Source: a virus. From it: 56,215 bases of DNA. Positions 1 to 43,049 of the stretch are shown here, one piece after another (position 1 is the first letter of the stretch; the number at the start of each line of letters is the position of its first letter). The notes beneath the pieces are model-generated. The model did not search any database and was not told the origin of the DNA. It was given only the letters and a program-made list of their open reading frames with translations. The position numbers were made by a program, and so were the translations under genes. Where the stretch lies: positions 1 through 56,215 of the IMG/VR virus record IMGVR_UViG_3300029998_000036. One strand, written 5' to 3'.

Positions 1-158
1 TTAATCAAGCTATGGCATTAAAGAAAGCTGAATTACAGTCTGAACCCGGATTCGCTCCTATTGTCAATATTAGCAATGAAGAAGGTAATAAAGCTGCTTT
101 ACTACAAGAACAAGGTATAAGGACAGTCGCAGCTTCAACGACAGTCAATAGAAAATCT
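1..158. repeat. Terminal overlap, left copy
   Basis: These 158 bases recur at 56058-56215. The only difference is T at 127 versus C at 56184, which changes a Val codon to Ala. The overlap joins the gene broken at the two ends into one reading frame, so the contig represents a circular or terminally redundant molecule. An assembler k-mer overlap would normally be exact, so the mismatch suggests strain variation or a true terminal repeat. Confidence 0.9.
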
Positions 159-1328
159 GCTGAAGCTGTTGCTAATGAAATGATAAATGTTCTACCTATA
201 TCAGAAAGTATGTCTAAACTTAAAGGTACTTCATCTCAAGATATTCAAGATAGAACTACTATCGGTATGCAAACAGCTAAAGATATTGTTGCCCCTTTGC
301 AAGACCTAGGAGAGGATAATATAGACAAACCTATGCAATCTATCACTACAGACAAATCATTGCCTTTAAATGAGCCTAATAAGTCTAAAACAGCTATTAC
401 AGCTAAAGCAGGTGCTGGAGAAAAAGCTAGTTTCTCGTTAGATTCAAGTGGCAAATGGCAAGGTGGAGAAGTTAAATATAAACCTACTATTACCACTATT
501 CAAGACAAAGGTATTAGTATAAAAGATGAAATGCCTTATACAATGGAATCGTTAATGGATAGTGCTGATTTATTACAAATAGGAGCTGGAGATAATTATA
601 ATGCCAACAATAATCCTTATTTAATGATGGCTAATCAAAGACAATCTTTTCTTAATGATTACGCTAAACAACAATCTGATAGAATACAGCAATCTGTTAA
701 ACAAGGTGAAGTTGAAGTTAAAGCTCCTACTGCAGATTATTCTAGCAAAGTATCTGAAGGAATGGGTACTAATATTTATTATGGCGGTTCTAAAATAGAC
801 ATGAGGTCTAGTGATAAAAAGGAAAAAATTCCTACTGCTACTGATGCTTCTGGACATGATATGGTAGCTACAGGACAAGAATTTAAATTCCAAAATATAT
901 CTTATCCTGAAAGAGCTAGTACAACAGTTGATGTAGCTCCAAGTCAAGTGACTTCTTCTGAATTTGCTTCTAATTGGATATTGTCAGATAGAGATGGTAA
1001 ATTACCTGCAAATTCTGTTTGGACATATAATTCCGGTACTGGTCAATCAGAGCCTAATCCTAAGATTAAAACAGTATTTGATTTACAACAGTTATTAAAA
1101 AATCCTCCTACTACAGGTGTTTCGTTTAAATCTAAATCTGGTCAAGACTTGATATATAGAAAACCTCAGCAAGATGCTAGTGGCAAACAAATGGGTTTGA
1201 ATCATAATCTTACAACTACTGATGGAAGTAATATTAGAGCTACAGGTGGACAGTTAAATACTTTAGGCGGTAGAGGTATCCAAGCCAATGCTCCTAAAGG
1301 TCAAAATCCATTACAATTAGGAGAATAA
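3..1328 (+). CDS. Probable ejection (internal virion) protein, C-terminal part; 5' end lies at 55832
   Basis: The frame is open from base 3, so the ATG at 12 is internal. Joined to the right-end fragment (55832-56057) it gives one protein of 517 residues. The visible part is polar and rich in Gln, Asn, Thr and Ser, with no membrane segment or enzyme motif that I recognise. It lies between two Gly/Ala-rich proteins (54532, 54960) and the giant protein at 2002. The next gene starts one base after its stop, which points to one operon. In Bacteroidota podoviruses this position usually holds ejection or internal virion proteins, and the role is inferred from that context only. Confidence 0.75.
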   Translation, partial: NQAMALKKAELQSEPGFAPIVNISNEEGNKAALLQEQGIRTVAASTTVNRKSAEAVANEMINVLPISESMSKLKGTSSQDIQDRTTIGMQTAKDIVAPLQDLGEDNIDKPMQSITTDKSLPLNEPNKSKTAITAKAGAGEKASFSLDSSGKWQGGEVKYKPTITTIQDKGISIKDEMPYTMESLMDSADLLQIGAGDNYNANNNPYLMMANQRQSFLNDYAKQQSDRIQQSVKQGEVEVKAPTADYSSKVSEGMGTNIYYGGSKIDMRSSDKKEKIPTATDASGHDMVATGQEFKFQNISYPERASTTVDVAPSQVTSSEFASNWILSDRDGKLPANSVWTYNSGTGQSEPNPKIKTVFDLQQLLKNPPTTGVSFKSKSGQDLIYRKPQQDASGKQMGLNHNLTTTDGSNIRATGGQLNTLGGRGIQANAPKGQNPLQLGE

Positions 1329-1329
1329 T

Positions 1330-1920
1330 ATGGATCCGAAAATTAAAGATATAATAGTTGATCAAGCTTATAAACGTAAAGCTAGTGGGCAACCAATATC
1401 GATGGAAGATTTAAACTATATTATACAGCAACAAGCTATTCCTATACCTCAAGATAAAATAGTAGAATCTCAAAGTGGTTCTGAAGAAACTATGCAAAAT
1501 CTACAAAAGGCTAAATCTGGTAACGTAGAATCTGGTACATGGAATAATTTTAGACGCGGTTTAGGTGGTGGAGAATCAGACGAAGAATTAAAAGCTAGAG
1601 CTATACAAGAAGCTGAACAGGCGGTAAGATCTAAGCAAACTGTTATACCTAATCCTAAGGCTATTGATAAAGAACAATTGCTTAGAGAAGTTAACGCTAA
1701 TAAGTTATCAATGGATACAGCGGATACTATGTATAAAGAACCTCCTAGAGATCAGTTTTGGAATAGTCCTGAAGGATTAGCTTTATCAGTTAGAGAAGCT
1801 CAAGCTAGTGGTGATCAACAAAGACTTGAACAGGCTAAGTATAAACAAGCTAATATCGAAAAGCTTAAACAAGAATGGTATGGTAAAGCTATATCAACTA
1901 AAAAGAAAAAAAAGAAATAA
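1330..1920 (+). CDS. Hypothetical protein with polylysine tail, probable ejection-module protein
   Basis: 196 residues, start ATG one base after the preceding stop. It is strongly hydrophilic, with helical stretches rich in Glu, Gln, Lys and Ala, notably around residues 75-110 and 135-180, and no membrane segment. The C-terminus is a run of six lysines (STKKKKKK) just before the stop. The giant protein downstream also ends in a lysine run. The family is not recognised. Its position between a 517-residue virion-like protein and the polymerase-like giant suggests a small DNA-associated internal virion protein, which is inference. Confidence 0.8.
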   Translation: MDPKIKDIIVDQAYKRKASGQPISMEDLNYIIQQQAIPIPQDKIVESQSGSEETMQNLQKAKSGNVESGTWNNFRRGLGGGESDEELKARAIQEAEQAVRSKQTVIPNPKAIDKEQLLREVNANKLSMDTADTMYKEPPRDQFWNSPEGLALSVREAQASGDQQRLEQAKYKQANIEKLKQEWYGKAISTKKKKKK

Positions 1921-2001: not shown

Positions 2002-5000
2002 GTGCCTTTAACCGATATACTCCAAGATATGGGTAAGACTGCGAGACAGTCTACTCAACCATTAACTACCGAACAACCAATGCAACCTGAAGCCATTATA
2101 GATAAAGCTCAGGTTGCTAAGGTTAAACCTAAACGTAAGACTTATCAAGAACTTCCTGAAAAAGAACAAACTTTAGTTGATAAAGAACAATCTGAACAAT
2201 ATCAAAGACAATTAGATAATGAAGCTAATCCTTTTAGATCATTAGATCAAAATGTCTTTATACCTACCACAGATGACCAAGGTAATACGAAATTGGTTTA
2301 TGATAACGATGAATACATGCGAGCTAAAAAGCAAGCTGATTCGATCTTATATGACCAATTTAATAATAATCCTTATCCTCAGTATCAAGAAGATTACTAT
2401 AATGCCTTTATATTAAAAAAGGACGGTAATCTATTTGACGCTACTAGAGGCTATGCCGGTTCTGCTAGGGTCGCATTAAAAGATATGTATGCAGATGCTA
2501 CTGGACAATCTGATCCTCAAAGAGAGAAAGCTAGAAAGTATTTTAGTGATATTATAGATAACTATACAGGTACTATAAAATCTATTGACGCTTCTAAGTA
2601 TTACGCTTTGGCTAAAGGAGGTTCTATTGATCCTAAAAGTATGATGCACGCTGAATCTAAACAATTTGGTTCTGATATATTCGGAGCCGCGGCTAAAGGA
2701 TTAGGTGGTATATTGTCTGGTCCGTTAGAAACTAACCAAGGGATTGATTTATTTAGTGGAGTTAAAAGCTTAACTGAAGCGGTATATCAACAAAATCTAG
2801 GCTGGATTGTAGATTCTAAACAACATGACGAATATGTTAAAGGACAAACTAAATTAGCTCAGAATGAAGGATTAGTTGGGCTATTAGGTTTAAAAGGAAA
2901 TATAGGTGGTTCAGAGATAAAAAATATAATCAAAAGTCAATTGCAAATGAGTATGGAGAAATACTCTAATCAATTAAAGGAAGATGGTTTATTTGATCCT
3001 AATGCTCCAGATCCTTTATTAGTTAAAATGCAAAATGACTTAAAAGCTATTGATGAAGAAGGTACTAATTTATTAGACTTTGCCGCTAGTACAGGAGTTA
3101 ATTTAACATCGCTTATAACCGATATATACTCTCCACTAGGAGCTTTTAATATAGGTGGTAAAGTTGCTAAGGGAGTTGAGAAAGTAAGCTTTAAGGTCAA
3201 AAGAAGCGTATCTATTGCCAAGGAAATGCAGTTAGGTAAAACATTTGGAGAAATGGATGTTCCTAAGCTTACTAAAGATGTCTTTAGTAACTTTAAAGTT
3301 AGCGAGAATACTTTAAATGAATTTAACCATGTCAATAAAATGACTAACGCAGTTAATATAAATAAGATACCAAATGTAAATTTAATATCTGAACATCCTA
3401 ACGTACAAGCTATTGTAGATTATCTTAAGCCATTCTTAAAGTCTGAAGGAGTTACTCTAGAAGGTAGTTTAATTGAACCGGCGCATAGTATTATTCCTAA
3501 TCTAACAACAGCTATTACTACTTCTTATTTGCAAACTATATTTGGAGATGTTACTCCTACATCAGATGAGATAGAAGCTGCTTCAAAGAATCTAGGTTTA
3601 ATGATGACTGCCGGTACAGTATTATTTAATGGATTACTACGCGGAACAATGATAGAAAATGGATTAGTTAAGAACTCTAAATTATTACAAAATATTGATC
3701 CTGATAAAGCTGAAAGATTAGTTGCTATGATTAACAATAAGAACATGTTTGTTAATGGACTTATGGATGTAGCCGCTGGTACTACACTTGAATTACCTAG
3801 TATTATGCAATTCTCAGCTCAAGATGATACTCATGGAGTAGGTAAAGCTATTGCTCAAAGTTTAATCACTCAATTAGCTATGATGGGACACGGTATAATC
3901 TCTAGTGGTAAAGGTTACTTAAGAGAATCTGATCATTTGAAACAAGAAAATGAATATTATAAATACGTAGACAAATTGACATTATATGACAAAATAGATA
4001 ATGTTGAAGTTCCTATTGGTAAAAGAGATGTTAATTTAGGAGAGTATGTTTATCAGAGAGCTAAACAGCAAAACATAGATGCTGACAATATGAAACTTAG
4101 CGATATGAAAAAGCTTTTAGATAAGACTAATTTAACTAAAGATCAATTAAAAATCATTGATAAGATAAATGATTTAGCTGGTGATGTTAGCGTTAATTTT
4201 TCTAGTACAGATATGCCTTATAACAGACCAGGCAAGTTCAATGCTAATGATAATGCTATTACAGTTAATACAAGCGTTGCTACCGATAGAACATTTAACT
4301 TAGATGGTACAATGGCTAACTTGATTATACATGAAGGTACTCATGCTTTAACCGCCGGTGAATATCGGAATAATCCTACATTTGCTAAGAATATTGATAA
4401 TATGTTTGATGATCTTATTACAAGTCCTTTGTTATCAGATACTCCAATACTTAATCAATTGTCCGGTCCTAATGGAAAAGATGAAATGATGGCTTTATTG
4501 GCTCAAGGTGATCCTAATATTATCAAGGCATTGAATCAATCAGACGTATCAGGACAATACGAGTATTACAAACGTAAAGTAGGTAAGTTGTTTGGTGGTA
4601 AAGAAACTTATGATAAATTCGTTGAAACTTTACAGAGCATACAATCGACTACTCCTTCAGAAGGTACTATGTATGGTTCTAATATATCTACTCTAAAAGC
4701 TATCGCCGGCGGGCCTGTTTATTCAATTAATAATCCTATGCCTTATGAAGTTAAAAATGATCTAAATGATGGCAAAGGAAATATTAGATTAGCTGAATTG
4801 AGTAAAGGTAAAATTTACATTAATACTGATTTTACTCCTGATTACTTTTGGAAGTATTTAATCGGCGAAGTACCTAGTGAAACATCTAAACAAAAGCAAG
4901 CTATGTTAGCTAGAATGGCTAAGGTAGATGGTTATAGCTTAGATAAGGTGAAATCTATTTTAACTCAGCCTCAAGACTTTATAGACTTTTTACATTTACA

Positions 5001-8000
5001 CGAACAATCGCATATTGATAATAACGATTCCGGAAAATATTCTGATTACTTCAAGAAGTATGGTAAACTTGATTACATGTCTGCTGATTTAATCAATGCA
5101 GAGAAACGTGCTACATTAGATGCTTTAAAGATTATAGAGAAACGTAAAGCTACCCAACCTGAAGCTGTTAGGCAAGAAGTGGAATCAATTATATCTATGA
5201 CTGCTAAAGACCCTACTTCTTTTGACCGTACAGAGGTTAATAAGACACAATTGATAGAAACATACGGCAGAGAGTTAATAGAGCGTTCTAAGCCAACGGA
5301 TATAGGTTTCTTTAGGAATCTAGGGTTCATGGATAAGTATAATGGATTTGAAGATATAGCTTCTAAGGATATTGACAAGATTACTAATCTTTATGTTGAT
5401 TACTATAATAGGGTAGAAGGACAATCTGACGATCCTAAAATACAGGAACAAAGATTAAATAAATCTTTATTACAAGCTATGAAACTAAAGAATCAAGTAC
5501 GTAAACCTGAGTATACTATATCTTTTGGTATGAGAGATAAACAAGCTATATTAGATAATGTATCTTTAAATAATACTCCAAAATATCCTGACGGAGAATC
5601 ATTAGATCCTTTCAGAACTAAAATGGATAATTTTAATGATAGATATTCTAAACAACTAGATAGATTTAATAGTGTAAATTTAAATGAATCTGAGAAAGCT
5701 ACATTAGATATTTTAAAAGGATATGATCATGTAACTGTTAATGGATATATCAACGATAAAGATACTGGTCACGATTCTGGTACTATTATAGCTAGAAATC
5801 CTGAATTAGCTAATCAATTAGCTGAGAAAGGTTTTGTCTATCTACCTAAAGCAACCGGTGGTAAAGTTATTAAACTAAATTTTAATGGCAAAGATCCTGC
5901 TATAATCGCTCAAGACTTGATGCAAATGGACTTGAAATATTTTCTATCGTCTGATGGAACTTATGGTCGCTATGGAGCCGGAAAGGCTATTGGTAATGAT
6001 CCTGTTATACTTAGTTTATTAGACTGGAATAAAATCAACAAAGGGATATTAACTAAGGATTATTTTATTGATAGCCCCAATATAGAACCTAAGGATTTAG
6101 AGAAATTACAACCTATATTTCAAGAAGTAAATAATGCTATTGATAATTATCTTAGAGGACCTAATGGCGAGCATATCTATAAAGATTCTAAACCTTCTTT
6201 GATAGATGCTTTTACTTCTCATTACCTTAATGTAATTGATGAATCTGCACAAACCAAAGGTACTAGATTAATTAAAGATAATTTAGGTAATACTCAAATA
6301 GCTGATAAAAAGATACCAAATAAGTATAATGCTCCTTTAGTTGATTCAGATACATTCTCGTACAAAGGAGAACAAGGTATAACAGTATTTGAAAAAATTA
6401 CTGGATTGGGAAGTGATATATCTTATTCTGATGCTAGACGTAGTGGTATAGATAAAGATAGTAAAGGTATATTTAGATCTACTGCTATAATTGATCCTGA
6501 TTGGCTTAAACCTAATACTGGATTATTTCCTAATGAAATGTTATATCGTTTTATGAAGGAAAAGGAAAATGATGGTGGGCAGAACTATCTTAATAGAGAA
6601 TCAGCTTTAATAGATTCTAGAGCTTTAGGTAAAGGAGATGAAATACCTGCATTAAGTAAGCAAGGTAATGGTTCTAGTGGCACTATAAATAAGTCTGCTA
6701 TGCACTATCAAGTATTCGATGAGTATAATGATTTGCATGAATCTGAATTAACTTCATTTAAAAAGAAATTACAATATGCCGGTATATCTGATGTAAGTAA
6801 TAGTTCATGTTTCAAAATGCCTAATTCATTTGAGTATATAAAGAAACCCGGACTTATTGATGGCACTACATTAGTAATGGACGGCGGTACTAATCTATTA
6901 CAGGTATTAGATAAAAATGGTAAAGTAGATAAAGACTTAAAAGATGAAACTATAAAAATCTATTTACATCAATTGTTCAATGAAGGTAATACTCCTGAAC
7001 AGTTTAAACATAAAACTTATTTAGCCGGTGAAAATCCTTCTAATTATATGTTTGGTTCTCATGTTTACGAAGATCATAAATTGAATACTGGAGCTGGTAC
7101 TTTAGGGATAAACAAAACTCCTAACTTTAGCCGTACTTCTAGGTTCTTTGAAGGAGAACTAGGACAAAAGACTTATGAAGCTACTAAAGATACTGAAAGA
7201 CTTATTGAGAATAGTTCTAAACAGCAAGACAATGATATATGTTTCTTAGAAGCTACTCATAGAAAATATGCTGATTTATTAAATAGTGCGATAGATAAAA
7301 ATGGATTAGCTGATTTTAATATAAATCCTGAAGATGCTACAAGACTTATTCGTGGTATGAAAACTATGATCAATAGTCTTAGAGAATCAGAAGTTAAGAA
7401 TGACTATATTAACGTAGATTACGCCGAATTAGCCTCTAAAATGATTGAAGATAGGTACAAGTATGCCTTAGACAATAATGAACCTATAAACGATTCTATT
7501 AAAGATATTTTCACATTGTATCATCAAATGGTAGGTTCAAGAGCTGGTGAAACATATAATCAAAAAGCTGGTCAATTTACCGTATATTCTGAAGCTAGAT
7601 CTAGAATAGCTGAAAAGGCTTATCAAGGATATACAGCTGGTATGAGCGTTAAACTTGGTACTTCTAATGAGGGTATAGCTTCTTATCATAGAGGATTAGA
7701 TGGATTTGCTAATATGGAATTAAGGCGTCAATTTGATAATCTAGTTAAACAAGGATTTACAAATAAACCTAGCGAAGAATCTACTTTATTGCATAATAAG
7801 ATAGAGGAATTCGGAGGTGACATTGAATCTGTTTATAGTGAATGGTCTAAATTACATATTGATAAAATTAAAGAAGGTTTGCTAAATACAACAGCTGAAC
7901 TATTACCTGAAATATTTGATGAAACTGGTTGGTGGAAAGAAAATGCTAAATTATCTGGTATAGTGTTAAGTGCTAAGGATATTGAACAATTAAACAAAAT

Positions 8001-11000
8001 ATCTGCTGAACCAATTACTTTGGGTAGTAAGATACTTGTTACTAGAGTTCCATTGGATAACGAAGCTTCTATGATGCCTGCTGTTGTCATTGGACTAGAG
8101 AATCATAATGGAGGCGTTGTAAGAGGCAATAAAGAACTAATAGCTCACTTTACTGGAGCTGATGATGATGGTGATGGTATATCATTACGTCCGGCTGATA
8201 AATTCAATTTCCCTAAAAAGAACTTCGACCCTATTTGGGAGCATTGGAAAGAACAAATGTCTTATATGAATAATGTTAAAAAGGGAGCTAGTGATTTAGA
8301 AGCTCAGGAAAAGATATTACAAAATGGTACTCGTAAAGTTTATAATACTTTGAAACAATATATTCCTAATTTACAGGCTAACGAATTAATCCAAAAGTCT
8401 AATCAACCCGGAATATTTAATAGAGCTATGCAAGCTGATAAATCAATGGACGTAACAGCTCGTAATGCTACTGCATTGCATGTAGCTAAAAACGGTTTAT
8501 CACCTGAATTAAGGAATATGGAAATTGATATTGGTGGTAAAATGTACCCTGCATTTGATGTTATTACAGCTTATCTTAATCCTAAATCAGTTGATATGTT
8601 TAATCCTCAGGTAGTTGATAATAAGAACGCAGTCGCTAATCTAATGGGTTATTCTGATTTAGATTCAATGCTAACTGAAGTAGGTGGTAAAGGTCGTAGC
8701 GCATTAAAGAAATTCAAAGAGCTGGGTTATAATGAAGCTAGTGAGAAATTAGCTTCTACAGTTTCAGATGAAGGTGGTCCGTTGAATAGAGTTGCTAAGT
8801 TTCTAAATGACAATACAATGGAACATGGTTTAAACAAAGACCATACTTCTATATTTGCCGCTCACAATAAGATGCAGTCTAATATGGCAGATCAGATTAT
8901 GTCTAAGGTGACTGATACAGTCAATAATATGTCTTTCCAAAATGAAGATGGTAGCCTTAATAGAACTAAGCTATTGTTTACGCCGGTGATTAATACTGCT
9001 CATGGTAAAAAAGTATCGTTAGGAGACTTAGCAATAGCTTTAAATCAATCTAAAGGTCAAGAGTTTTATGATGTAGTCCAACGTATATTTGGTATTGATT
9101 ATCCTACTATCGATAAGATATTAAAAGGCAACCAAAGAGTTAATGTTAAGTTAGATGGTAACGATTACAACATATCTCCTAATATTAAACAATTAGCAGG
9201 TATACATACTAAGAATGTTTTAAATAGTCTAGTATTAGGTCCGGGCAATATTAAGACTATTGAACTCAATAAACAGCTTGGTACTTCAATGACTATATAT
9301 CCTGATAGAACTATTAAATTGCCTGATGGTACTATCAAACCTATACATCAATTATTTGAACGTGATGGTAATGTTAAAGCATTTAAAACTCCTTATGAAA
9401 ATAACCAATTTATATATGCAGTGCAAAAAGCTATTAAAACTTCTGGTAATAAACAAGGACTTGTATTTGATAATAGCCAAGAATCTATTAAGATGCGTAA
9501 TAAGGAATATATCAATTCAATTGCAGATGCTTTCTCTAATGGAACTGAAGACGCTTCATTAATGACGACAGCTATTGCTTACCATCCTACAAGTCCCGAT
9601 GGCACGACTTTACTAAACAATGGTACAAATGAACCAAGTTCTATTTGGGCGCAGTCTAATGGTCCACAAATGCGTAATGACCTTATTAAAAACTATATGT
9701 CGCAAGGTATTGATAAAAAGACAGCTGAATACTTATCTAAAAAGAAATTAACAGCTGGATATGTTGATTTGCTTAATTTAACTGGATTACCTTTAAAAGT
9801 AGACAAAGGTACAAGCTTAGTAGATTTCACATTACAAAAGCAAACTGATATGTTGTATCCTAATAATAATGATTTAGGAACTACTGAACGATTTGACAAT
9901 CCATTTTACAGTTCAGTACAATCATTAAAGAATGAACCAACTAGAAAATTGTTTGAAATGAGAAAAGGTGATATAGCCGACTACGTTATGAAAGTAGATA
10001 AGAGAGCCGGTAGATTAATGAGACAAGGATTAGCAGGAAAGGCACTTTCTAGCCTTTCTAACGAACAATATCACGGTATAATTAAAGATATACTTAAGCC
10101 TGCTATTGAATCCAATATAGTCAAAGTATCGAGTAAACAGAAATGGAACGAAGCTCACACTAAAGAAGTATTAGACAACTTAGAATCTGTATTGGAATCT
10201 AATAATATAGATAATGCTGAGAAGTCTTGGCAAGATTCATTCGGTAGTAAAATAGGTTCTACTTTGTTTAGAGCTAATTATATAGCAGGATTGTTTAAAG
10301 ACTTAGCTAATGCTAATAAAACTTATAATAATAGGTCTACTCAATTTGCTTTATTCAATACTAGAACTCCTGAAGGTATCATTGACAGGGTATCTGTATA
10401 TAAGAATTTTTATGATGCTAGCCATGAGTATATTAAGTTCTTCACTAATACTGGCGATGTATCAAACGAACATCCCGGACTTGTCAAAGATATATTAGAG
10501 AAAACAAGTGGTAATGTATTAGCCGCTACCTACATGTCTAAAGCTCTAGTTGAAATAGTTAAACCATTGGACTTCTACAATAACATTAAAGATTCAATGA
10601 AATCCCAAATTACTCAATTCCATTTAGACAAAAACTTAACTGGTCATTTACAAGATTTTAAGCCTGAAGAATTGACTAATATATTCAAAGACGATGATTT
10701 GTCCAATATACTTAGTAATACTAATTTTAGTTCTATTACTGGCATAGAAACTATAAAGCAAGCTCTTTGTAATTATGGTGGAGTATCAGGTGATCTTAAT
10801 AATACTGAACTAATAGCTAAACAGATTGCTAAAAGCTGGAAAGAGACTAAACTAAATCCAATAGATTATTACCATGAGGATATAGAGACCGGTGGAGAGT
10901 ATAAAACTGCTATACCTAAACATTTAGTCGAATCAGTTCCTCCAGAGGTTTTAGCGGATTATAACGCATGGAGTTTAAGCCAAGGTTATCAAGAGAAAGT

Positions 11001-14000
11001 TGGAGAATTACATAAAGAGTTAGATCTTAAATCTAATCAAATTGAGAAAGCTGTTAATTCGTTTCTAAAGTATAAGACTTTCTACAATGCAATTGGTGAT
11101 CAAGCATTAAACTTAGCTAAAAGTTTTGATGATTTTATAATTAAACAAAAGTTTGATGTTAATGATCCTTCATCATTCGGACCATTAGGATTAGCTACTA
11201 GAGCTGTTAATAATTTAACTGAATTATCTAATGACTTAAAATCTATGGATAGCAAACGGTTCTTAAGTTCTATATCTACTACTGAAGCCGGTGATTTGGC
11301 TTTTGCTAGCGAACTCAATACTAAGCTGATTCAACCTACTTTAAAAGAAGAAGGCATATTACAAGAAACTAGAGAGGAGCTTAATACTAAATTCGATTAT
11401 AAGAACCAATCTGGCGTCCCTATGATGCGTATGATGCTTAATGCAATAGAAGCTACTGGTCATGGTCCAATAAATGATATAGGGACTAGAAAGTTCTTTA
11501 CCGATATGCTTAGAGAACAATCCAATGAAATGTACAATAGAAACTTATTCGGACAAAAACCTAATATTCCTATTGATATATCTCAAACCGCTTTACCAAT
11601 AGATGATATTATTGGTTCTGCTATTGAGTACCATAATCTTAATAACCAAGATAAGATGTGGTATGATCAAATGCAAAAGTTAGGAGTTCCTGAGTTCCAA
11701 GACGCTTGGTCTAATTTAGATCATATATCTAAAAGAGATCTATCTGAAGTCGCTAGACAAGTTATTAGTTCTAAAGTATCTGGAGCTATTAATAAAGCTA
11801 AAGGTGATATGGTTATACAAGAATTTTGGGACGATAATGGTTTATCGTTTGATCCGGCAAGACCTAAAAAACTTGAAGATGGTTCTTATGGTTATATTGG
11901 AATTGACGTTAATGGTATCAAAAAGAATATTGACTTAATTGACTTATATAATTTATTAGACAAAAGCGATCGTTCTTATAAGACTATATATGATCCTAGT
12001 AGGTTATCAGGTAAAGTTAATAGCCAAGTACAAGTAGCGTTACTCAATATGCAAGAAGTAGCTAGACAATCTTATGGTAGATATGGTGACGACAATCCTT
12101 ATGCCGCTGGATTAATTACTGAAAAGTTATCTCAAGGTATTAATGGTAAATATAGATTTATGCACGACCACGATGTTAGTATGTGGGCTTCTCAATTAGA
12201 TGATAAAGATTCATCTCAACCATTTGATGCTGGTAGTCCAATGAGTATTATAGCTAACGTCAATGGAGAATCAAGACAATTGGTAGGTTATGGCATTACT
12301 ATAATGAATCGATCTGTTGATGTAAAGAATAGCGATAAAATGAAAGCTATTAATAAATTAGAAGCTAGTGGTTATCATGCAGACTTAGCTCCAGATCAAA
12401 AAGCTATGATGACTAATGGTCGTAAAATACCTTCATTGATTATGGTAGATTCATTTGGTGGTAAAGATCCCGTTATATACTCAATACCTCTTTCTAGCGT
12501 TCAAAATGCTACAAGTGGAGATTGTTATGGCTGGACTAGTAATCGTCAATTAGAACGTCTTAAAAAGGCTTCTAATGGTATTGTAGATGGAATTGTTTCT
12601 AGCTTAAAGAATCCTAGAATAGTAGAGAATGATTTCAAAGCTTATCCTGATGCTAAGTATGTAATGGATAGAGAAGGATTTTATCAAGACTATAATTATA
12701 AAGCAGATAATACTAAAGGCAATTTACAAGTAAGACAAAAGCTATTAACTTTAGCCGGCGGTTTACCTAATTCAGAGTTTAGACAATATGCCGTTGCAAT
12801 GTCAAAAGATGCTATTGGAACTGATCTAATTAAACTAATGGCAGATGGTTATAATTCGTATCAAGGTAAGATGAAATACTGGGGAGGTTCGTATGTTGTT
12901 ACTACTGCAGCTGCTGGATTAATAGCAACTGGAGCAGCTTTAACTGGCAATATACCATTAGCTGGTTTAATGGCTGGTACTGCATTGAAATCTGTTGCTG
13001 GGTTTACTAAAAATATATTATGGCGTAAAGTAATTGCCAATAGAGCAACTACTGGTCAATGGGCATTACGTAATTATATACCTGACTTAGATAAAAATAA
13101 AGATCTTACTATTTCAGATAGTTTCGCTTCTTATATCTGGAGACCTTTAACTGAGGTATATAAATCATTAGGAGAGGTTAAATCATTATCTGAATCAGAT
13201 CTATCAATGGCAGCTGGTAAAATAGCTAGATTAACATTTGGAGAGCATTTAACTACTGAAGGTTCTAACTATGGTTTAGATATTCAAACTAAAGACGTAT
13301 CATTACAAAAGAAGATATATAAAGAGAGACTAGATATATTAGAAAAAACTAATAAAATGATTGAGAATGCAGGTCGTACCGACTTAGATGTTACTAAAGC
13401 TCAGTATCTATTAGAAGATTTATTGTCTAGTTCTAAATTCAATAAAGATGTTAAAGGATTAGTATATAAAGACCAATCTGGTTCATTCTCTACAATAGCC
13501 GGATTAACTAAAGAGGATATAACAGTTGCTAAAGATGAATTAGGTTCTTGGTTAAGTTCTACTGCATACGCCCAGTTCCTAGCTAATCAAGAAAAGAATA
13601 GCGCTATGAACACTACCAAGGTTGGTTTAAAGCATTCTATTAATATGCAGGAACAGCTTAAAAAAGCATTTGGCAATAGAGAGATATTCCAAGATGGGGC
13701 TGTTAACCAAACTGCATGGGACGATGTATTGACTATGAATACATTAAGTTATATTAGTCAAAGAACTATTGGTAACTTTGAAAAAATAGGTTCTGCTGCT
13801 ACTCCATTTGGTAGATGGGCATTAATGTTCTCACAGTTCTTACATGAGAATATATATGATACTACAATTGGTTCGGCTAATAGACGCAAACTATACAGAG
13901 CCTTAGAAAATGAAATTAACTTATTGCCTAAAGATGATGTTGCTAGAAAGGTAATGACTAAGTACGGTATCTTGGTAGGTGATAAATTATTCCATACTCC

Positions 14001-14505
14001 AAAGACTGAGACTAAAGCTATATTAGGTTCATTAACAGGTAATATGTTATTATCCTTAGTTGGCTTAGCTACATTACAGACTATGAATAACAATCTAGGT
14101 AAAGATGTAACTGAGATTACTGATGATGCTTTAAAGATGATAGCTGAACCTATGAATCTATCAGGACCGGTACAGAATAATTTAGTACGTGGAGTTGTTG
14201 GACTAGGATTTGATCTATTTGCTAATAAGCCTACATCTCAAAGTATTGTTAGTAATGCTTCTTATGGACAACAAGATTTACAATCTACATTAGGATTAGG
14301 TGTTGGACAATCTCAAGTATTAAAGCCTGAAGTAGTTATTGGATATGTAGCTTTACGTCATATATTAGAGGAAGCTAGAATAGTTCATAAAGTAACTGAT
14401 CATAAGCAAATGGAAGCTTTATTAGATAATACAATGATTGAAATGACTAATGAACTTGGCTTAGGTAATATAACTAGAACGTTATTAAAGAAAAAGAAAA
14501 AATAA
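2002..14505 (+). CDS. Giant multidomain virion protein: putative RNA polymerase (DxDGD) with two zincin motifs
   Basis: 4,167 residues from the GTG at 2002; the true start may be ATG 1958 via the A10 slip. Visible motifs: HEGTH at about 777-781 and HEQSH at about 1000-1004, both zinc-metallopeptidase HExxH patterns. Around 2010-2060 comes VTRVPL, then SMMP, then HFTGADDDGDG (acidic residues 2054, 2056, 2058). This resembles the double-psi beta-barrel catalytic DxDGD site of multisubunit-type RNA polymerases and its upstream R-x-P context, as known from giant proteins of crAss-like phages. Hydrophobic segments lie near 530-550, 3631-3672 and 4005-4028. The tail is LLKKKKK. It is the last gene of the late operon after ejection-type genes, so packaging and injection with the DNA is likely. 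The polymerase role is inferred from motif and context, not proven. Confidence 0.8.
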   Translation: MPLTDILQDMGKTARQSTQPLTTEQPMQPEAIIDKAQVAKVKPKRKTYQELPEKEQTLVDKEQSEQYQRQLDNEANPFRSLDQNVFIPTTDDQGNTKLVYDNDEYMRAKKQADSILYDQFNNNPYPQYQEDYYNAFILKKDGNLFDATRGYAGSARVALKDMYADATGQSDPQREKARKYFSDIIDNYTGTIKSIDASKYYALAKGGSIDPKSMMHAESKQFGSDIFGAAAKGLGGILSGPLETNQGIDLFSGVKSLTEAVYQQNLGWIVDSKQHDEYVKGQTKLAQNEGLVGLLGLKGNIGGSEIKNIIKSQLQMSMEKYSNQLKEDGLFDPNAPDPLLVKMQNDLKAIDEEGTNLLDFAASTGVNLTSLITDIYSPLGAFNIGGKVAKGVEKVSFKVKRSVSIAKEMQLGKTFGEMDVPKLTKDVFSNFKVSENTLNEFNHVNKMTNAVNINKIPNVNLISEHPNVQAIVDYLKPFLKSEGVTLEGSLIEPAHSIIPNLTTAITTSYLQTIFGDVTPTSDEIEAASKNLGLMMTAGTVLFNGLLRGTMIENGLVKNSKLLQNIDPDKAERLVAMINNKNMFVNGLMDVAAGTTLELPSIMQFSAQDDTHGVGKAIAQSLITQLAMMGHGIISSGKGYLRESDHLKQENEYYKYVDKLTLYDKIDNVEVPIGKRDVNLGEYVYQRAKQQNIDADNMKLSDMKKLLDKTNLTKDQLKIIDKINDLAGDVSVNFSSTDMPYNRPGKFNANDNAITVNTSVATDRTFNLDGTMANLIIHEGTHALTAGEYRNNPTFAKNIDNMFDDLITSPLLSDTPILNQLSGPNGKDEMMALLAQGDPNIIKALNQSDVSGQYEYYKRKVGKLFGGKETYDKFVETLQSIQSTTPSEGTMYGSNISTLKAIAGGPVYSINNPMPYEVKNDLNDGKGNIRLAELSKGKIYINTDFTPDYFWKYLIGEVPSETSKQKQAMLARMAKVDGYSLDKVKSILTQPQDFIDFLHLHEQSHIDNNDSGKYSDYFKKYGKLDYMSADLINAEKRATLDALKIIEKRKATQPEAVRQEVESIISMTAKDPTSFDRTEVNKTQLIETYGRELIERSKPTDIGFFRNLGFMDKYNGFEDIASKDIDKITNLYVDYYNRVEGQSDDPKIQEQRLNKSLLQAMKLKNQVRKPEYTISFGMRDKQAILDNVSLNNTPKYPDGESLDPFRTKMDNFNDRYSKQLDRFNSVNLNESEKATLDILKGYDHVTVNGYINDKDTGHDSGTIIARNPELANQLAEKGFVYLPKATGGKVIKLNFNGKDPAIIAQDLMQMDLKYFLSSDGTYGRYGAGKAIGNDPVILSLLDWNKINKGILTKDYFIDSPNIEPKDLEKLQPIFQEVNNAIDNYLRGPNGEHIYKDSKPSLIDAFTSHYLNVIDESAQTKGTRLIKDNLGNTQIADKKIPNKYNAPLVDSDTFSYKGEQGITVFEKITGLGSDISYSDARRSGIDKDSKGIFRSTAIIDPDWLKPNTGLFPNEMLYRFMKEKENDGGQNYLNRESALIDSRALGKGDEIPALSKQGNGSSGTINKSAMHYQVFDEYNDLHESELTSFKKKLQYAGISDVSNSSCFKMPNSFEYIKKPGLIDGTTLVMDGGTNLLQVLDKNGKVDKDLKDETIKIYLHQLFNEGNTPEQFKHKTYLAGENPSNYMFGSHVYEDHKLNTGAGTLGINKTPNFSRTSRFFEGELGQKTYEATKDTERLIENSSKQQDNDICFLEATHRKYADLLNSAIDKNGLADFNINPEDATRLIRGMKTMINSLRESEVKNDYINVDYAELASKMIEDRYKYALDNNEPINDSIKDIFTLYHQMVGSRAGETYNQKAGQFTVYSEARSRIAEKAYQGYTAGMSVKLGTSNEGIASYHRGLDGFANMELRRQFDNLVKQGFTNKPSEESTLLHNKIEEFGGDIESVYSEWSKLHIDKIKEGLLNTTAELLPEIFDETGWWKENAKLSGIVLSAKDIEQLNKISAEPITLGSKILVTRVPLDNEASMMPAVVIGLENHNGGVVRGNKELIAHFTGADDDGDGISLRPADKFNFPKKNFDPIWEHWKEQMSYMNNVKKGASDLEAQEKILQNGTRKVYNTLKQYIPNLQANELIQKSNQPGIFNRAMQADKSMDVTARNATALHVAKNGLSPELRNMEIDIGGKMYPAFDVITAYLNPKSVDMFNPQVVDNKNAVANLMGYSDLDSMLTEVGGKGRSALKKFKELGYNEASEKLASTVSDEGGPLNRVAKFLNDNTMEHGLNKDHTSIFAAHNKMQSNMADQIMSKVTDTVNNMSFQNEDGSLNRTKLLFTPVINTAHGKKVSLGDLAIALNQSKGQEFYDVVQRIFGIDYPTIDKILKGNQRVNVKLDGNDYNISPNIKQLAGIHTKNVLNSLVLGPGNIKTIELNKQLGTSMTIYPDRTIKLPDGTIKPIHQLFERDGNVKAFKTPYENNQFIYAVQKAIKTSGNKQGLVFDNSQESIKMRNKEYINSIADAFSNGTEDASLMTTAIAYHPTSPDGTTLLNNGTNEPSSIWAQSNGPQMRNDLIKNYMSQGIDKKTAEYLSKKKLTAGYVDLLNLTGLPLKVDKGTSLVDFTLQKQTDMLYPNNNDLGTTERFDNPFYSSVQSLKNEPTRKLFEMRKGDIADYVMKVDKRAGRLMRQGLAGKALSSLSNEQYHGIIKDILKPAIESNIVKVSSKQKWNEAHTKEVLDNLESVLESNNIDNAEKSWQDSFGSKIGSTLFRANYIAGLFKDLANANKTYNNRSTQFALFNTRTPEGIIDRVSVYKNFYDASHEYIKFFTNTGDVSNEHPGLVKDILEKTSGNVLAATYMSKALVEIVKPLDFYNNIKDSMKSQITQFHLDKNLTGHLQDFKPEELTNIFKDDDLSNILSNTNFSSITGIETIKQALCNYGGVSGDLNNTELIAKQIAKSWKETKLNPIDYYHEDIETGGEYKTAIPKHLVESVPPEVLADYNAWSLSQGYQEKVGELHKELDLKSNQIEKAVNSFLKYKTFYNAIGDQALNLAKSFDDFIIKQKFDVNDPSSFGPLGLATRAVNNLTELSNDLKSMDSKRFLSSISTTEAGDLAFASELNTKLIQPTLKEEGILQETREELNTKFDYKNQSGVPMMRMMLNAIEATGHGPINDIGTRKFFTDMLREQSNEMYNRNLFGQKPNIPIDISQTALPIDDIIGSAIEYHNLNNQDKMWYDQMQKLGVPEFQDAWSNLDHISKRDLSEVARQVISSKVSGAINKAKGDMVIQEFWDDNGLSFDPARPKKLEDGSYGYIGIDVNGIKKNIDLIDLYNLLDKSDRSYKTIYDPSRLSGKVNSQVQVALLNMQEVARQSYGRYGDDNPYAAGLITEKLSQGINGKYRFMHDHDVSMWASQLDDKDSSQPFDAGSPMSIIANVNGESRQLVGYGITIMNRSVDVKNSDKMKAINKLEASGYHADLAPDQKAMMTNGRKIPSLIMVDSFGGKDPVIYSIPLSSVQNATSGDCYGWTSNRQLERLKKASNGIVDGIVSSLKNPRIVENDFKAYPDAKYVMDREGFYQDYNYKADNTKGNLQVRQKLLTLAGGLPNSEFRQYAVAMSKDAIGTDLIKLMADGYNSYQGKMKYWGGSYVVTTAAAGLIATGAALTGNIPLAGLMAGTALKSVAGFTKNILWRKVIANRATTGQWALRNYIPDLDKNKDLTISDSFASYIWRPLTEVYKSLGEVKSLSESDLSMAAGKIARLTFGEHLTTEGSNYGLDIQTKDVSLQKKIYKERLDILEKTNKMIENAGRTDLDVTKAQYLLEDLLSSSKFNKDVKGLVYKDQSGSFSTIAGLTKEDITVAKDELGSWLSSTAYAQFLANQEKNSAMNTTKVGLKHSINMQEQLKKAFGNREIFQDGAVNQTAWDDVLTMNTLSYISQRTIGNFEKIGSAATPFGRWALMFSQFLHENIYDTTIGSANRRKLYRALENEINLLPKDDVARKVMTKYGILVGDKLFHTPKTETKAILGSLTGNMLLSLVGLATLQTMNNNLGKDVTEITDDALKMIAEPMNLSGPVQNNLVRGVVGLGFDLFANKPTSQSIVSNASYGQQDLQSTLGLGVGQSQVLKPEVVIGYVALRHILEEARIVHKVTDHKQMEALLDNTMIEMTNELGLGNITRTLLKKKKK

Positions 14506-14911: not shown

Positions 14912-15370
14912 ATGGTAGATATTATACCACCGGATAGAGAATATATTGCTAAAGTTAATGCCGACCAATTGTCATTAGAACGCTCAGAAGCTAAAGCTAA
15001 GGCATTAAAGGATCGTGAAGCAATAGATTCTATGACTGCCAATCTAGAGGCTCAATACAGAGCCTCTATTGAGGTAAAAGAACAACCTAGTATTTGGAGT
15101 ATAGCTTGGTTTATCATAACTAACTCTCCAAAGTTATTAGTATTAATTTATCAATTCTTAAAGGTTATAACAATGAATGAAGACAAGAAGACTACAGTTA
15201 TGGCTACTGCTAAAATAGTATGTGGTATCATTGCCTTAGGATTAAGTATATTTCATATTGACTTATCTGCCGGTATGCAAGAAACATTAGTTGGTTTAGC
15301 TGGTTCAGGTTATTTAGTATTCTCTTGGTTACAAGGACTATTCACCAATAAAAAGACTGAAGCAAAATAA
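14912..15370 (+). CDS. Holin-like membrane protein, possible second start at 15173
   Basis: 152 residues. The N-terminal 50 are charged and helical. A hydrophobic segment lies at about 65-85 (IWSIAWFIITN onward), and two more are separated by a short turn in the last 65 residues (IVCGIIALGLSIF and ETLVGLAGSGYLVFSWL). An in-frame ATG at 15173, preceded by AAAGG, would yield a 65-residue protein with two membrane segments and a charged C-terminus, the size and shape of a holin. The gene ends overlapping the terminase start. A lysis function is inferred from topology; no holin family is recognised with certainty. Confidence 0.6.
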   Translation: MVDIIPPDREYIAKVNADQLSLERSEAKAKALKDREAIDSMTANLEAQYRASIEVKEQPSIWSIAWFIITNSPKLLVLIYQFLKVITMNEDKKTTVMATAKIVCGIIALGLSIFHIDLSAGMQETLVGLAGSGYLVFSWLQGLFTNKKTEAK

Positions 15371-17220
15371 TGGATGAACAATTCCTATTAAGCTTACTAG
15401 ACAATACTGCGCCTAGGTCCCAATTACAGGATCTAGGCATTTTAAAATTTGCTAAAACTTTCTTTCCTAAAAGATTTGAATACGATTTCGCTGATGTTCA
15501 TTATGATATGATTATGCTATTGTTCATGTTACTTGATCCTCAATACGAATATCAAACTGAACGTCAAGCATACTTCCTAGTGCATAGAGAAGCCGCTAAG
15601 ACTACTTTAGGTACATTCTTATTCCCAATGTATCTTATCTATATGAAAGGTCTTAAAATCAATGCTAGGCTCTATAATCGTAGCTGGAAAGGTAGAGGTG
15701 ATGATGAGAATTATAGACTAGGACAAATAGAGATTAATGAGAATTTTATATTAATAGCTTCTGAAACTGCTAGAGCTTCTGAGAATTTTGTTGTTTCATT
15801 AAGAGATGAGATTACTAGACGTTCTGATATGTCTATGATATTTGGAGAGAAAGATCCTAAAGAGATTATCATTGAAGATGAAAGAGAACGTAAGACTGAT
15901 AATACATGGCGTAAAGCCGCATTCAAGACAGCCGATAATACTGTTGTTATTGGACTAGGAGCTGGACAACAATCACGTGGTACTAATATTGATGGCTCAC
16001 GTCCTACCTTAGTTATCGTAGACGATATGTATTCACATAAGAATATAACAACTGAGGAGTCACGTGAAAAGATACGTTATTGGTTCGATTCAGAGCTTAC
16101 AAACTCATTAGATTCACGTAAAGGTAAAATACTATGGTCTGGTACTTTATTGCATCCTGATACGGTTGTAAAGGACTTTGATAAAGAAGACTGGTTCGGT
16201 ATATCAAGACCGCTTATCAATGTAGAGGAATTAACTGAAGTTATCAAAGGTTGTTCTAATAGTGGTTCATTTGTTATGCCTTCTAAGGAATGGTGCATTA
16301 GGAAACAACCTACATTAAAATCATTATCTTGGACTAGCCGGCATGATCTATATTCGATCATGTTACGTTATCGTAAAGCCTTGGATAAAGGTAAACTAAA
16401 TAACTTCTATCAGGAGTTTATGAATGAATACTTAGCTCCTGAAACTAAAATGATTCATAAAGATTCTTTTCTACCTTGTAAGCTTAATATATTTAAACAG
16501 CAAGGTATGCAAATGGTAGAGTTTAAACATGAGAACATTGACTGGTATGGTACTTGCTCTTTGTCAATCGGTTTTGATATTGCTAGTTCTACTTCTAACA
16601 ATACTGATGATACCGTTATTATGGTTGCTGGTTATGCTAGATGTTATCCTAAGATACAAGGTTTAGACTGGCAATCACAACAATCAACTATGCCTATGGG
16701 TAGAGTATTCCCTATCATAGCTCATATTGAAGGTGGTAAGTATTCTATCCATAACTATCAGAATACTAAAGGTCAATTAGAATCAATAGAAGCCTTATGT
16801 AGACGCTACGTAATAGACCGTGTTAAGATGGAGGCTAATGGACAACAGGCTTTAATAGAAAGAGAGCTTAGAAGTCATTTACAAGAGAATAATATACATG
16901 TTAGTGTTTGGGCTGAGTATACTAGTCAAAACAAAGCTGATCGTATATTGTCAGTAGTATTGCCTGTTATCCAAAAGTATACTAATATCTTATGTGAACC
17001 TAGTTCTTTAATTGAAAAACTATACTTTCAAACATTAACAGTTGGTATGAGTGATCATGATGATTATGCAGATGCCTATTCAATTGCAATGAAAGCTTCT
17101 AAACCTCCATTAAGAGTATTTGGACTTCAAACACATTTAGATACATCTGTAACGCAAACTAAGACGCGATGGGATCAATTAGTTGATGCGTACGGCAATG
17201 ATGCCTATTTATATTTATAG
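15370..17220 (+). CDS. terL: Terminase large subunit (packaging ATPase and nuclease)
   Basis: 616 residues, normal for TerL. The ATPase part has an atypical Walker A HREAAKTT (about 72-79), as is common in phage terminases, and Walker B LVIVDD (about 214-219). The C-terminal RNase H-like nuclease shows its acidic residues in GFDIAS (D403), VKMEANG (E488) and SDHDDYADAY (about 561-570). The protein pumps DNA into proheads through the portal (38270) and cuts concatemers. Its ATG overlaps the stop of the holin-like gene and the small-subunit candidate follows after eight bases. A GC-rich hairpin lies about 41 bases inside the gene (15411-15438). Confidence 0.95.
   Translation: MDEQFLLSLLDNTAPRSQLQDLGILKFAKTFFPKRFEYDFADVHYDMIMLLFMLLDPQYEYQTERQAYFLVHREAAKTTLGTFLFPMYLIYMKGLKINARLYNRSWKGRGDDENYRLGQIEINENFILIASETARASENFVVSLRDEITRRSDMSMIFGEKDPKEIIIEDERERKTDNTWRKAAFKTADNTVVIGLGAGQQSRGTNIDGSRPTLVIVDDMYSHKNITTEESREKIRYWFDSELTNSLDSRKGKILWSGTLLHPDTVVKDFDKEDWFGISRPLINVEELTEVIKGCSNSGSFVMPSKEWCIRKQPTLKSLSWTSRHDLYSIMLRYRKALDKGKLNNFYQEFMNEYLAPETKMIHKDSFLPCKLNIFKQQGMQMVEFKHENIDWYGTCSLSIGFDIASSTSNNTDDTVIMVAGYARCYPKIQGLDWQSQQSTMPMGRVFPIIAHIEGGKYSIHNYQNTKGQLESIEALCRRYVIDRVKMEANGQQALIERELRSHLQENNIHVSVWAEYTSQNKADRILSVVLPVIQKYTNILCEPSSLIEKLYFQTLTVGMSDHDDYADAYSIAMKASKPPLRVFGLQTHLDTSVTQTKTRWDQLVDAYGNDAYLYL
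15411..15438 (+). other. GC-rich hairpin inside the terL start region
   Basis: GCCTAGGTCC (15411-15420) can pair with GGATCTAGGC (15429-15438): ten base pairs including one G-U, loop CAATTACA, followed by ATTTT. It lies in codons 14-23 of terL. It resembles a weak terminator or a processing stem; similar hairpins occur near the starts of other late genes. Confidence 0.5.
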
Positions 17221-18628: not shown

Positions 18629-18636
18629 AATTAATA

Positions 18637-19008: not shown

Positions 19009-19065
19009 GATAATCTCCACGAGAGAAGAGTAGTATTTGCATCACTCTTAAGCCACTCTGAATAT

Positions 19066-19167: not shown

Positions 19168-19208
19168 ATTAAAGAGAAACTCTCATAATAAGTTGTATAA
19201 TTGTTAAT

Positions 19209-19228
19209 CAAAATAAAACGAAAATTAA
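19209..19228 (-). promoter_or_regulatory. Phage early promoter/operator motif, copy 1
   Basis: The minus strand reads TTAATTTTCGTTTTATTTTG, matching the motif found at 19531, 20365 and 29444. It points toward the tRNA-like element and the gene at 19008. Promoter function is inferred from repeated placement before operons and from the TAnnTTTG-like end. Confidence 0.55.
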
Positions 19229-19530: not shown

Positions 19531-19550
19531 CAATATATAACGAAAATTAA
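19531..19550 (-). promoter_or_regulatory. Phage early promoter/operator motif, copy 2
   Basis: The minus strand reads TTAATTTTCGTTATATATTG, 17 bases upstream of the TTG start at 19513. It shares 16 or more positions with the copies at 20365 and 29444. Confidence 0.55.
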
Positions 19551-20364: not shown

Positions 20365-20384
20365 TTAATTTTCGTTATATTTCG
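20365..20384 (+). promoter_or_regulatory. Phage early promoter/operator motif, copy 3 (rightward early operon)
   Basis: TTAATTTTCGTTATATTTCG, the reference copy of the motif, 56 bases before the first rightward early gene (20440). Part of it (AATTTTCGTT, 20367-20376) is repeated in inverted orientation as AACGAAAATT at 20405-20414, so the site could also be bound by a dimeric regulator. Confidence 0.6.
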
Positions 20385-29443: not shown

Positions 29444-29463
29444 TTAATTTTCGTTATATTTTA
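29444..29463 (+). promoter_or_regulatory. Phage early promoter/operator motif, copy 4 (recombination operon)
   Basis: TTAATTTTCGTTATATTTTA, identical to the 20365 copy over the first 18 bases. It lies 43 bases before the first gene of the recombination/replication operon, in the divergent gap 29339-29505. Confidence 0.6.
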
Positions 29464-41543: not shown

Positions 41544-43049
41544 ATGGAAGTTCCTCAAGTCAGAGTAGAAGGCGATATATGGTCAGGGTTTTCTGCTACC
41601 GGTACCATACCGGAAAGATTTACTTCTCGTGGTCTAGATAGATTAGGCGAGTTAGCCTTTATTACAAAAGGTACTAACAAGTTTATGTTTTCAGTCCATA
41701 CACGTTTTGGTAAAGCTAAAAGCGTACCTAATCGTGAACACATGGTTACTGAATTGGCAGAACTAGATCGTAGATTTTTTGTAACCGGTACATCAGATTC
41801 TGTTAATGGTAGAATCCATAATAGAATACCAATATCCAATTTACAAGCCGCTCAGTTGCAGTTAAATGATATGCTTATCAATACTAAGCTATATGCTTAC
41901 GTAAAAGGCGTACCTACCGGAGCTACGCAAATGTCACAAACATCTGTTAATAGCAATGGTACGTACAATTCAAATCCAGTCAATATCGGACCAGCGTTAG
42001 GCTATACAACAGGTTATATGCCAACATCAGTAGCGTTCTCTCGTTTATGGGGTAAAGGAGCTAGCAATGAATATTTCGTTGACTACGAACCAATGAAAGT
42101 AGTTCATATCTCTGAGCCAAATGCTATTAGTAGTGGAATAAGTTATATCGTTGTTAATAGATGCTATACCGGACCTCACTCTAGAGATATGGGTGGTTCA
42201 ATGATACCAACAGATATTATCGATACTTCTATTACAGCAGATTTAACTAACGGCGTAATCAAAGAAGGCGATATGTTGTTACGTATGCTACCTGTATTTA
42301 AAGAGGGTACTGGTGCACCTAATGGATTACACAAAAATCCAGTTATCGATAATAACTTTACTCAAGAGTTTAAGTACGCAGTTGAGAAAACAGCTGAATC
42401 TGATATTAACAAAAACTTGTTAAGTAAAACTCCTTTCGAGATCAATAAGATGCTTACAACTAGACGTATGAATATGGATATTGAAAGAACATATCTATTC
42501 GGACGTAAAGGTAAGTCGATGGATCAAAACGGTAAAGTTGAGTATTTGATGGGTGGAGTAGTAGAATCTATTATCAAAGATGATGCTCACATTATCGAAT
42601 ACAAACAACCTGCTTTAACATACCAAGGTTTATTAGATTTAGGACGTCCTATCTTTGAGTTAGGCGGTTCTCAAGAGCGTGATATGTTTGTAGGTTATTC
42701 TCTATATACTGAGTTGAAAAAAGCATTCTATGCTTCCGGTTATTTGAGAACTGATGCTTCTGCTTCTGCTAACTTTGATATTGAGATTGAATCTATTATT
42801 ACCGCCGGCGGTAAGTTAAACATTATTCCTCTATCGACAATGGAAGAGGCCGGTTGGGGTATGAGAGCTTTATGCTTAGATATGTCAGTACCTGCTTTTA
42901 CTCCTGTTACACATGACGGTTGGGATATGCGTTATGAACCTGATATTCAAGAGAAAGGTACTAATATGAAAAAAGATCAAATTATCGGTATCAAAGGTTT
43001 GGAACGTAAATACTTAGAATATCAATCTATCGTTAATTTTGATTTATAG
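41544..43049 (+). CDS. Major capsid protein
   Basis: 501 residues with AAAAGGA upstream. After portal and scaffold genes, a protein of this size with mixed alpha/beta content (GELAFITKGTNKFMFSVHTR; IERTYLFGRKGKSM; LKNPVIDNNF-type segments) is the expected HK97-fold coat protein. It includes YSLYTELKKAFYASGYLRTD and a conserved-looking C-terminal DQIIGIKGLERKYLEYQS. Assignment rests on order, size and similarity of pattern to coat proteins of Bacteroidota podoviruses. A GC hairpin lies near the gene start (41599-41613). Confidence 0.8.
   Translation: MEVPQVRVEGDIWSGFSATGTIPERFTSRGLDRLGELAFITKGTNKFMFSVHTRFGKAKSVPNREHMVTELAELDRRFFVTGTSDSVNGRIHNRIPISNLQAAQLQLNDMLINTKLYAYVKGVPTGATQMSQTSVNSNGTYNSNPVNIGPALGYTTGYMPTSVAFSRLWGKGASNEYFVDYEPMKVVHISEPNAISSGISYIVVNRCYTGPHSRDMGGSMIPTDIIDTSITADLTNGVIKEGDMLLRMLPVFKEGTGAPNGLHKNPVIDNNFTQEFKYAVEKTAESDINKNLLSKTPFEINKMLTTRRMNMDIERTYLFGRKGKSMDQNGKVEYLMGGVVESIIKDDAHIIEYKQPALTYQGLLDLGRPIFELGGSQERDMFVGYSLYTELKKAFYASGYLRTDASASANFDIEIESIITAGGKLNIIPLSTMEEAGWGMRALCLDMSVPAFTPVTHDGWDMRYEPDIQEKGTNMKKDQIIGIKGLERKYLEYQSIVNFDL
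41599..41613 (+). other. GC-rich hairpin near the start of the capsid gene
   Basis: CCGGTA and TACCGG (41599-41604, 41608-41613) with a three-base loop, 55 bases inside the gene. One of several short GC stems near late gene starts. Confidence 0.4.

Follow-up and report, generated by a model that had tools for sequence, protein, structure and literature searches.

A giant protein with a predicted two-barrel RNA polymerase core in an uncultured 56-kb bacterial virus with an N4-type terminase

The largest protein of an uncultured 56-kb bacterial virus (4,167 residues) appears to be an ejection-type protein that contains a giant single-chain two-barrel RNA polymerase (RNAP) and that is injected and transcribes the first viral genes, a reading to which we assign a probability of about 0.8. 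The two-barrel RNAP core is well supported. Its catalytic barrel (DPBB-A) is supported by conservation in a family of giant proteins, by profile matches, and by fold prediction.

Results

Genome and giant gene

At its two termini, the window (i.e., the whole stretch of DNA analyzed; 56,215 nt) has a direct repeat of 158 bp (positions 1 to 158 and 56058 to 56215), and the contig is either circularly closed or terminally repeated. One gene (55832 to 56057 joined to 1 to 1328) crosses the junction as a single 517-aa frame. Because of the end repeat and of this gene reading across the junction, we consider the genome probably complete.

The giant gene is a frame of 4,167 codons without an internal stop (Table 1); the exact start codon is uncertain, and a GTG was taken. 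It occupies 12,504 of the 56,215 nt (22%), shares its strand with the head and tail genes, and adjoins the gene for the terminase large subunit (TerL). The sequence-only reading, which described a 4,167-residue protein filling about 22% of the genome and containing a DxDGD motif, was correct on these points (unbroken frame; DDDGD at residues 2054 to 2058). Neither the whole giant protein nor six family cores gave any meaningful match in Pfam or PHROG. A tblastn search of 50,697 phage records in GenBank with the giant-protein core and one relative containing DFDGD gave no match, and a scan of viral contigs with the giant-protein core alone found no viral relative. No further RNAP gene was recognized among the scanned open reading frames of the genome.

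No ejection-protein homology was recognized in the genes upstream of the giant gene. The 196-aa protein had no family match, the 517-aa protein did not significantly match N4 gp51/gp52 or crAss gp45, and neither the 517-aa nor the 1,115-aa protein showed similarity to N4 or crAss ejection/tail proteins.

Terminase and placement of the phage

The terminase family profile matched N4 gp68 (hhalign, 98.4%; P 5e-15) and not crAss001 TerL (0.3%). The best phage matches of the terminase (about 22 to 24% identity) include JA-1, VCO139, JSF3, and EcP1, which we take to be N4-like phages. The sequence-only reading had framed the giant protein by reference to crAss-like phages, and this framing needs correction insofar as the terminase, judged by its sequence, is of N4 type and not of crAss type. 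The portal and major capsid proteins were not found to be of N4 type (hhalign against N4, 3.0% and 0.6%, respectively), and the comparison with crAss001 revealed no relatedness for these two proteins either (2.3% and 0.2%). With neither protein significantly resembling its N4 or crAss counterpart, we place the phage in neither Schitoviridae nor Crassvirales. Going around the circle, the terminase is followed by early and replication genes, then by the portal and capsid genes and further late genes; two smaller genes precede the giant gene. The terminase profile found no relative in bacterial genomes and therefore gave no clue to the host.

Table 1. Positions of genes, protein regions, and repeated elements in the window
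Feature	Position (nt)	Strand	Basis
3' part of 517-aa protein	12..1328	+	start at 55832, spans circular junction
196-aa protein directly upstream of giant gene	1330..1920	+	candidate ejection protein, position only
Giant protein gene, 4,167 aa	2002..14505	+	uninterrupted open reading frame; homologous giant frames in 10 related contigs
HEGTH, zincin-type HExxH, residues 777-781	4330..4344	+	H777, E778, and H781 invariant in five giants compared
HEQSH, second HExxH, residues 1000-1004	4999..5013	+	4,167-aa protein only
Conserved polymerase region, residues about 1275-2340	5824..9021	+	conservation profile, alignment
Candidate DPBB-B, residues about 1520-1690 (D1524-G1525, K1564, K1605)	6559..7071	+	inferred
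Predicted catalytic barrel DPBB-A, residues about 1976-2085	7927..8256	+	hhalign, AF2 pLDDT, Foldseek
DDDGD, predicted metal-binding triad D2054/D2056/D2058	8161..8175	+	three Asp invariant in 10/10 aligned sequences
YLNPKSVDMFN-type stretch with invariant D2198, candidate bridge-helix/trigger region	8569..8601	+	by position
Terminase large subunit, N4 type	15370..17220	+	phrog_38, E 2e-44
Candidate early promoter TTAATTTTCGTTATAT, 1 mismatch	19213..19228	-	repeat search
Candidate early promoter TTAATTTTCGTTATAT, exact	19535..19550	-	repeat search
Candidate early promoter TTAATTTTCGTTATAT, exact, upstream of gene at 20440	20365..20380	+	repeat search
Candidate early promoter TTAATTTTCGTTATAT, exact, upstream of replication block	29444..29459	+	repeat search
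Portal protein (P22_portal)	38270..40537	+	Pfam, E 9e-36
Major capsid protein (SU10_MCP)	41544..43049	+	Pfam, E 2e-16

Conservation of the DxDxD motif in a family of giant proteins

The sequence HFTGADDDGDG (residues 2049 to 2059), preceded by VTRVPL at residue 2013 and SMMP at residue 2023, contains the sole DxDxD of the giant protein. With an Asp content of 7.4%, 1.7 DxDxD and 0.12 DxDGD motifs are expected by chance, and they occurred in 79% and 11% of shuffled versions of the protein, respectively. Because of this expectation in an Asp-rich protein of such length, a DxDxD alone is no evidence, and we dropped the motif as stand-alone proof of a polymerase. As far as the sequence goes, the evidential weight rests on the conservation of the motif.

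Relatives were reached through portal and terminase profiles and not through the giant protein's own sequence. Homologous giant frames were present in 10 related phage contigs (G004, G005, G006, G009, G011, G014, G015, G016, G017, and G018), most of them encoding 3.7k to 5.3k aa and one being split over the contig end. The giants of the first five contigs were approximately 18% identical to the 4,167-aa protein in a global alignment. When the 4,167-aa protein and these five giants were aligned blindly over their full lengths, all DxDxD motifs fell in one column. Invariant columns, counted over five of the six aligned giants, numbered 52 of 4,167 and included H777/E778/H781, D1524-G1525, K1564, K1605, P2017, G2031, G2052, D2054, D2056, and D2058. 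Across ten sequences (the 4,167-aa protein and nine relatives), the triad, G2008, P2017, G2031, and D2198 were invariant.

The DDDGD form had been noted as unusual, and the relatives bear this out. The second position of the motif (x) is Asp only in the 4,167-aa protein and is Phe or Tyr in the nine relatives read, whose motifs are DFDGD, DYDGD, DFDKD, or DYDKD.

Two further observations concern individual relatives. In G011 (L019 and L033), the giant gene and the terminase gene are apparently on opposite strands, unlike in the 56,215-nt genome. Relatives have domains inserted after the polymerase motif; the insert in L065 (L065:2-2434, residues 742 to 811) resembles proteins encoded by jumbo phage Phabio and by Achromobacter phages of 74 kb (47 to 50% identity), and a similar stretch occurs in L043.

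Sequence and fold matches of barrel A

A family profile of the motif region was compared with 177,635 PDB sequences and matched 8f72, 8h2n, 8h2m, and 8f5m (E 0.019 to 0.064), the next match being one hemoglobin (E 0.93). Ten-sequence barrel profiles matched the same four entries and nothing else at an E of ≤10. These entries are P23-45 gp64, P74-26 gp62, and P23-45 gp96 (PMC10770324). The matches of the P23-45/P74-26 RNAPs to the family profile (E 0.02 to 0.3 overall) were aligned on the catalytic motif. Although each of these sequence matches is weak, it is not a weak finding that every one of them is a two-barrel RNAP and aligns on the motif.

Profile comparison by hhalign, a check of the kind that the sequence-only reading had proposed, pointed in the same direction. 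Residues 1970 to 2085 matched P23-45 gp96 at 86% (P 5e-6) and phi14:2 gp66 at 51% (P 1.5e-4), while shuffled controls reached ≤0.4%. Wider regions gave 65 to 79% with gp96 and 20 to 32% with gp66, compared with ≤1.7% for unrelated phage proteins and shuffles. Thus, the earlier suggestion of a catalytic barrel like that of the RNAPs in crAss-like giants stood as far as an RNAP barrel A is concerned (by conservation, profiles, and fold); the nearest enzymes by profile are the P23-45 RNAPs, and not crAss gp66.

Structure prediction, also proposed as a means of telling a barrel from a surface calcium loop, yielded a barrel with moderate model confidence. The AF2 model of residues 1955 to 2260 (306 residues; ten sequences) had a pLDDT of 62.7 and a pTM of 0.57, with a pLDDT of mostly 75 to 89 in the barrel part (residues 1964 to 2109). 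In a Foldseek search of the PDB, RNAP chains accounted for 47 of the 50 best matches, several of them at 2.7 to 3.0 Å over 72 to 84 columns. The remainder were two p97 entries and a V-ATPase; a double-psi barrel is present in the N-domain of p97. The best fold match in the PDB was weak (E 0.045), and at strict cutoffs neither this nor any single PDB sequence match was significant. The best matches in a viral library had an E of about 2e-4, and the named ones were crAss-like proteins, followed by giant-virus RNAP subunits and baculovirus LEF-9. An AF2 model of the full core (1,066 residues; six sequences) had a pLDDT of 37 and, taken alone, is not counted as evidence; the 50 best Foldseek matches of this model were all RNAP chains, but with TM values of 0.05 to 0.07.

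Other parts of the giant protein

In two-barrel enzymes, two basic residues come from barrel B (PMC7824862). Candidates in the giant protein are K1564, present in all nine sequences that reach it, and K1605, present in 9 of 10; D1524-G1525 is present in all eight sequences that reach it. These residues lie N-terminal to barrel A, on the side where single-chain enzymes keep barrel B. Since residues 1520 to 1690 alone gave no significant match in a profile comparison with gp96/gp66, we infer barrel B from these features, and a barrel B with Lys1564 and Lys1605 is plausible. Barrel A is followed by D2198 and long predicted helices; the bridge-helix part on its own had no significant profile match.

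Outside the polymerase region, HEGTH is a zincin-like, putative peptidase motif that is kept in the family, while the second HExxH (HEQSH) is absent from the relatives compared. No strong hydrophobic stretch suggesting a membrane segment was detected in the giant protein.

Candidate early promoters and noncoding elements

A 16-base AT-rich element (TTAATTTTCGTTATAT) occurs in three exact copies and one copy with a single mismatch. The copies sit outside recognized long genes and are directed into the replication block and the divergent units of small genes. No other sequence in the genome supplies a 14-mer that occurs three times, and five simulated genomes contained no such 14-mer. We sought a counterpart of these repeats in seven relatives and found no clear one. 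The element is a fair candidate for the promoter of the giant protein's polymerase and could equally serve the host polymerase.

Three other noncoding features lie in this part of the genome. Just downstream of a candidate promoter, a 113-nt stretch (19060 to 19172, minus strand) folds strongly (-38.8 kcal/mol; z, -5.7) and contains a T-arm-like AAGG-TTCGATT-CCTT; it gave no tRNA call and no Rfam match. A long AT-rich intergenic stretch (19580 to 20060) with TATATA palindromes and a palindrome at 19926 to 20003 is possibly an origin or control region. A terminator-like hairpin (TTAGCCCTAGAGATAGGGCTTTTT; 18607 to 18643, minus strand) had a weak Rfam match to SpF51, below the gathering score.

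Discussion

The conserved triad, the giant family, and the sequence and fold match of barrel A are direct observations. From these, we propose a three-part giant protein, in which the N-terminal part carries the zincin-like HExxH, the polymerase lies in the center (residues ~1275 to 2340), and a long C-terminal part follows. Barrel A would hold the Mg2+-binding Asp2054, Asp2056, and Asp2058, and barrel B would probably provide Lys1564 and Lys1605. The giant protein would be built into the virion and enter the cell together with the phage DNA; the central polymerase would then make RNA and transcribe the first viral genes in the cell, perhaps from the repeated TTAATTTTCGTTATAT element. Because an RNAP barrel sits in a virus with an N4-type packaging enzyme, the protein is probably injected to switch on these genes.

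The closest known protein by profile, P23-45 gp96 (PMC10770324; PDB 8H2M/8H2N), is a giant (5,002-aa) virion RNAP of a Thermus phage, fused to a tail tape measure. The two share giant size, a two-barrel RNAP (predicted in the protein described here), a metallopeptidase/HExxH module, and the motif context (GxDFDGD in gp96). However, the RNAP of gp96 is N-terminal (DFDGD at 779), whereas that of the giant protein is central and preceded by HExxH; gp96 has membrane domains and belongs to a long-tailed phage, whereas the phage described here has a P22-like portal. The gp96-type plan, i.e., an N-terminal RNAP on a tape measure with membrane domains, was thus not found in the giant protein. The phi14:2 gp66 of crAss-like phages (PDB 6VR4; 2,180 aa; DFDID at 1361) is a large virion protein that contains a two-barrel RNAP on a single chain, as proposed for the giant protein. 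Nevertheless, crAss-like phages have a transcription block of several large proteins in ~100-kb genomes, whereas here there is one 4.2k-residue protein in 56 kb, and the terminase is not detectably crAss-like.

N4 gp50, the virion RNAP (vRNAP) of Schitoviridae (PMC12633501), is a giant protein that is ejected and has an HExxH domain and a polymerase in its center, a plan like that proposed here. The terminases are homologous, and the cyclic order TerL-portal-MCP-giant is common to both phages; in N4, the direction of transcription leads from the terminase through the tail genes, the portal, the capsid, and then gp55 to gp51 to the giant vRNAP. However, the N4 polymerase is T7-like (palm fold) and unrelated to the two-barrel core, which showed no similarity to the N-terminal 2,675 residues of gp50 (hhalign, 0.1%), and HExxH follows the polymerase in N4 but precedes it here. 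In N4 vRNAP, P23-45 gp96, and the present family alike, a polymerase and an HExxH/metallopeptidase module occur within a giant protein, and gp96, gp66, and N4 vRNAP are all virion proteins (PMC10770324, PMC7886860, and PMC12633501). YonO of SPbeta (PMC5467207), likened to the giant protein by description and not by sequence, is a single-chain two-barrel DNA-dependent RNAP of about 100 kDa without a giant-protein fusion; it needs its Asp triad, and the 3D>3N change is inactive.

Among the alternatives, a genuine polymerase that is not part of the virion and is synthesized in the infected cell to serve middle or late genes, like P23-45 gp64, seems unlikely. The non-virion enzymes gp64 and gp62 are indeed the best PDB sequence matches of the ten-sequence profile, but gp64 is small (617 residues) and stands alone, whereas a 4,167-residue HExxH fusion beside the terminase in a head/tail block is the arrangement of virion polymerases (gp96, N4 vRNAP, and the crAss block).

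The Asp at x, unlike in all relatives read, could disturb the site, and the barrel might then have been inherited in a catalytically weakened or dead state, with the giant protein kept for ejection. This substitution (codon GAT here; TTT, TTC, or TAT in relatives) is accompanied by a departure from the family at position 1875. Nevertheless, the protein retains all three metal ligands, the two candidate lysines, D2198, and the pattern around them, 12.5 kb are free of stops and frameshifts, and the fourth position beside the triad already varies (G or K) in relatives, so that a weakened or dead barrel appears highly improbable. There is hardly any room for a DxDxDG calcium-binding loop in a structural protein with coincidental RNAP likeness: the string DDDGDG fits and a DxDxD is expected by chance, but several relatives (DFDGDD, DFDKDS, and DFDKDA) have lost the sixth-position Gly and have Phe or Tyr at x yet retain all three Asp together with the Gly/Pro pattern upstream, and the PDB sequence and fold matches of the barrel region are RNAPs, with no calcium protein among them.

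The injected two-barrel polymerase may also characterize a wider group. We regard it as an even bet that an unrecognized lineage of roughly 52- to 57-kb phages with N4-type terminases carries a two-barrel giant at the place of N4's T7-like vRNAP, with the same injected-polymerase strategy, the core exchanged, and, in the present phage, an Asp inside the triad.

Two-barrel RNAPs are the class that includes all cellular RNAPs, and highly divergent single-chain members, few of which are known to our knowledge, bear on the origin of this class. An RNAP barrel of the cellular kind has so far been seen in crAss-like and Thermus phages, and two-barrel giant phage RNAPs are already known as a kind; what is new is the variant. 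The giant family adds an independent lineage in small genomes, one whose 4,167-aa member has no Pfam, PHROG, or GenBank phage match, and the giant-polymerase plan with an HExxH module is now seen in a virus with an N4-type terminase. DDDGD would represent a natural variant of a motif that has a bulky second residue in all the relatives read.
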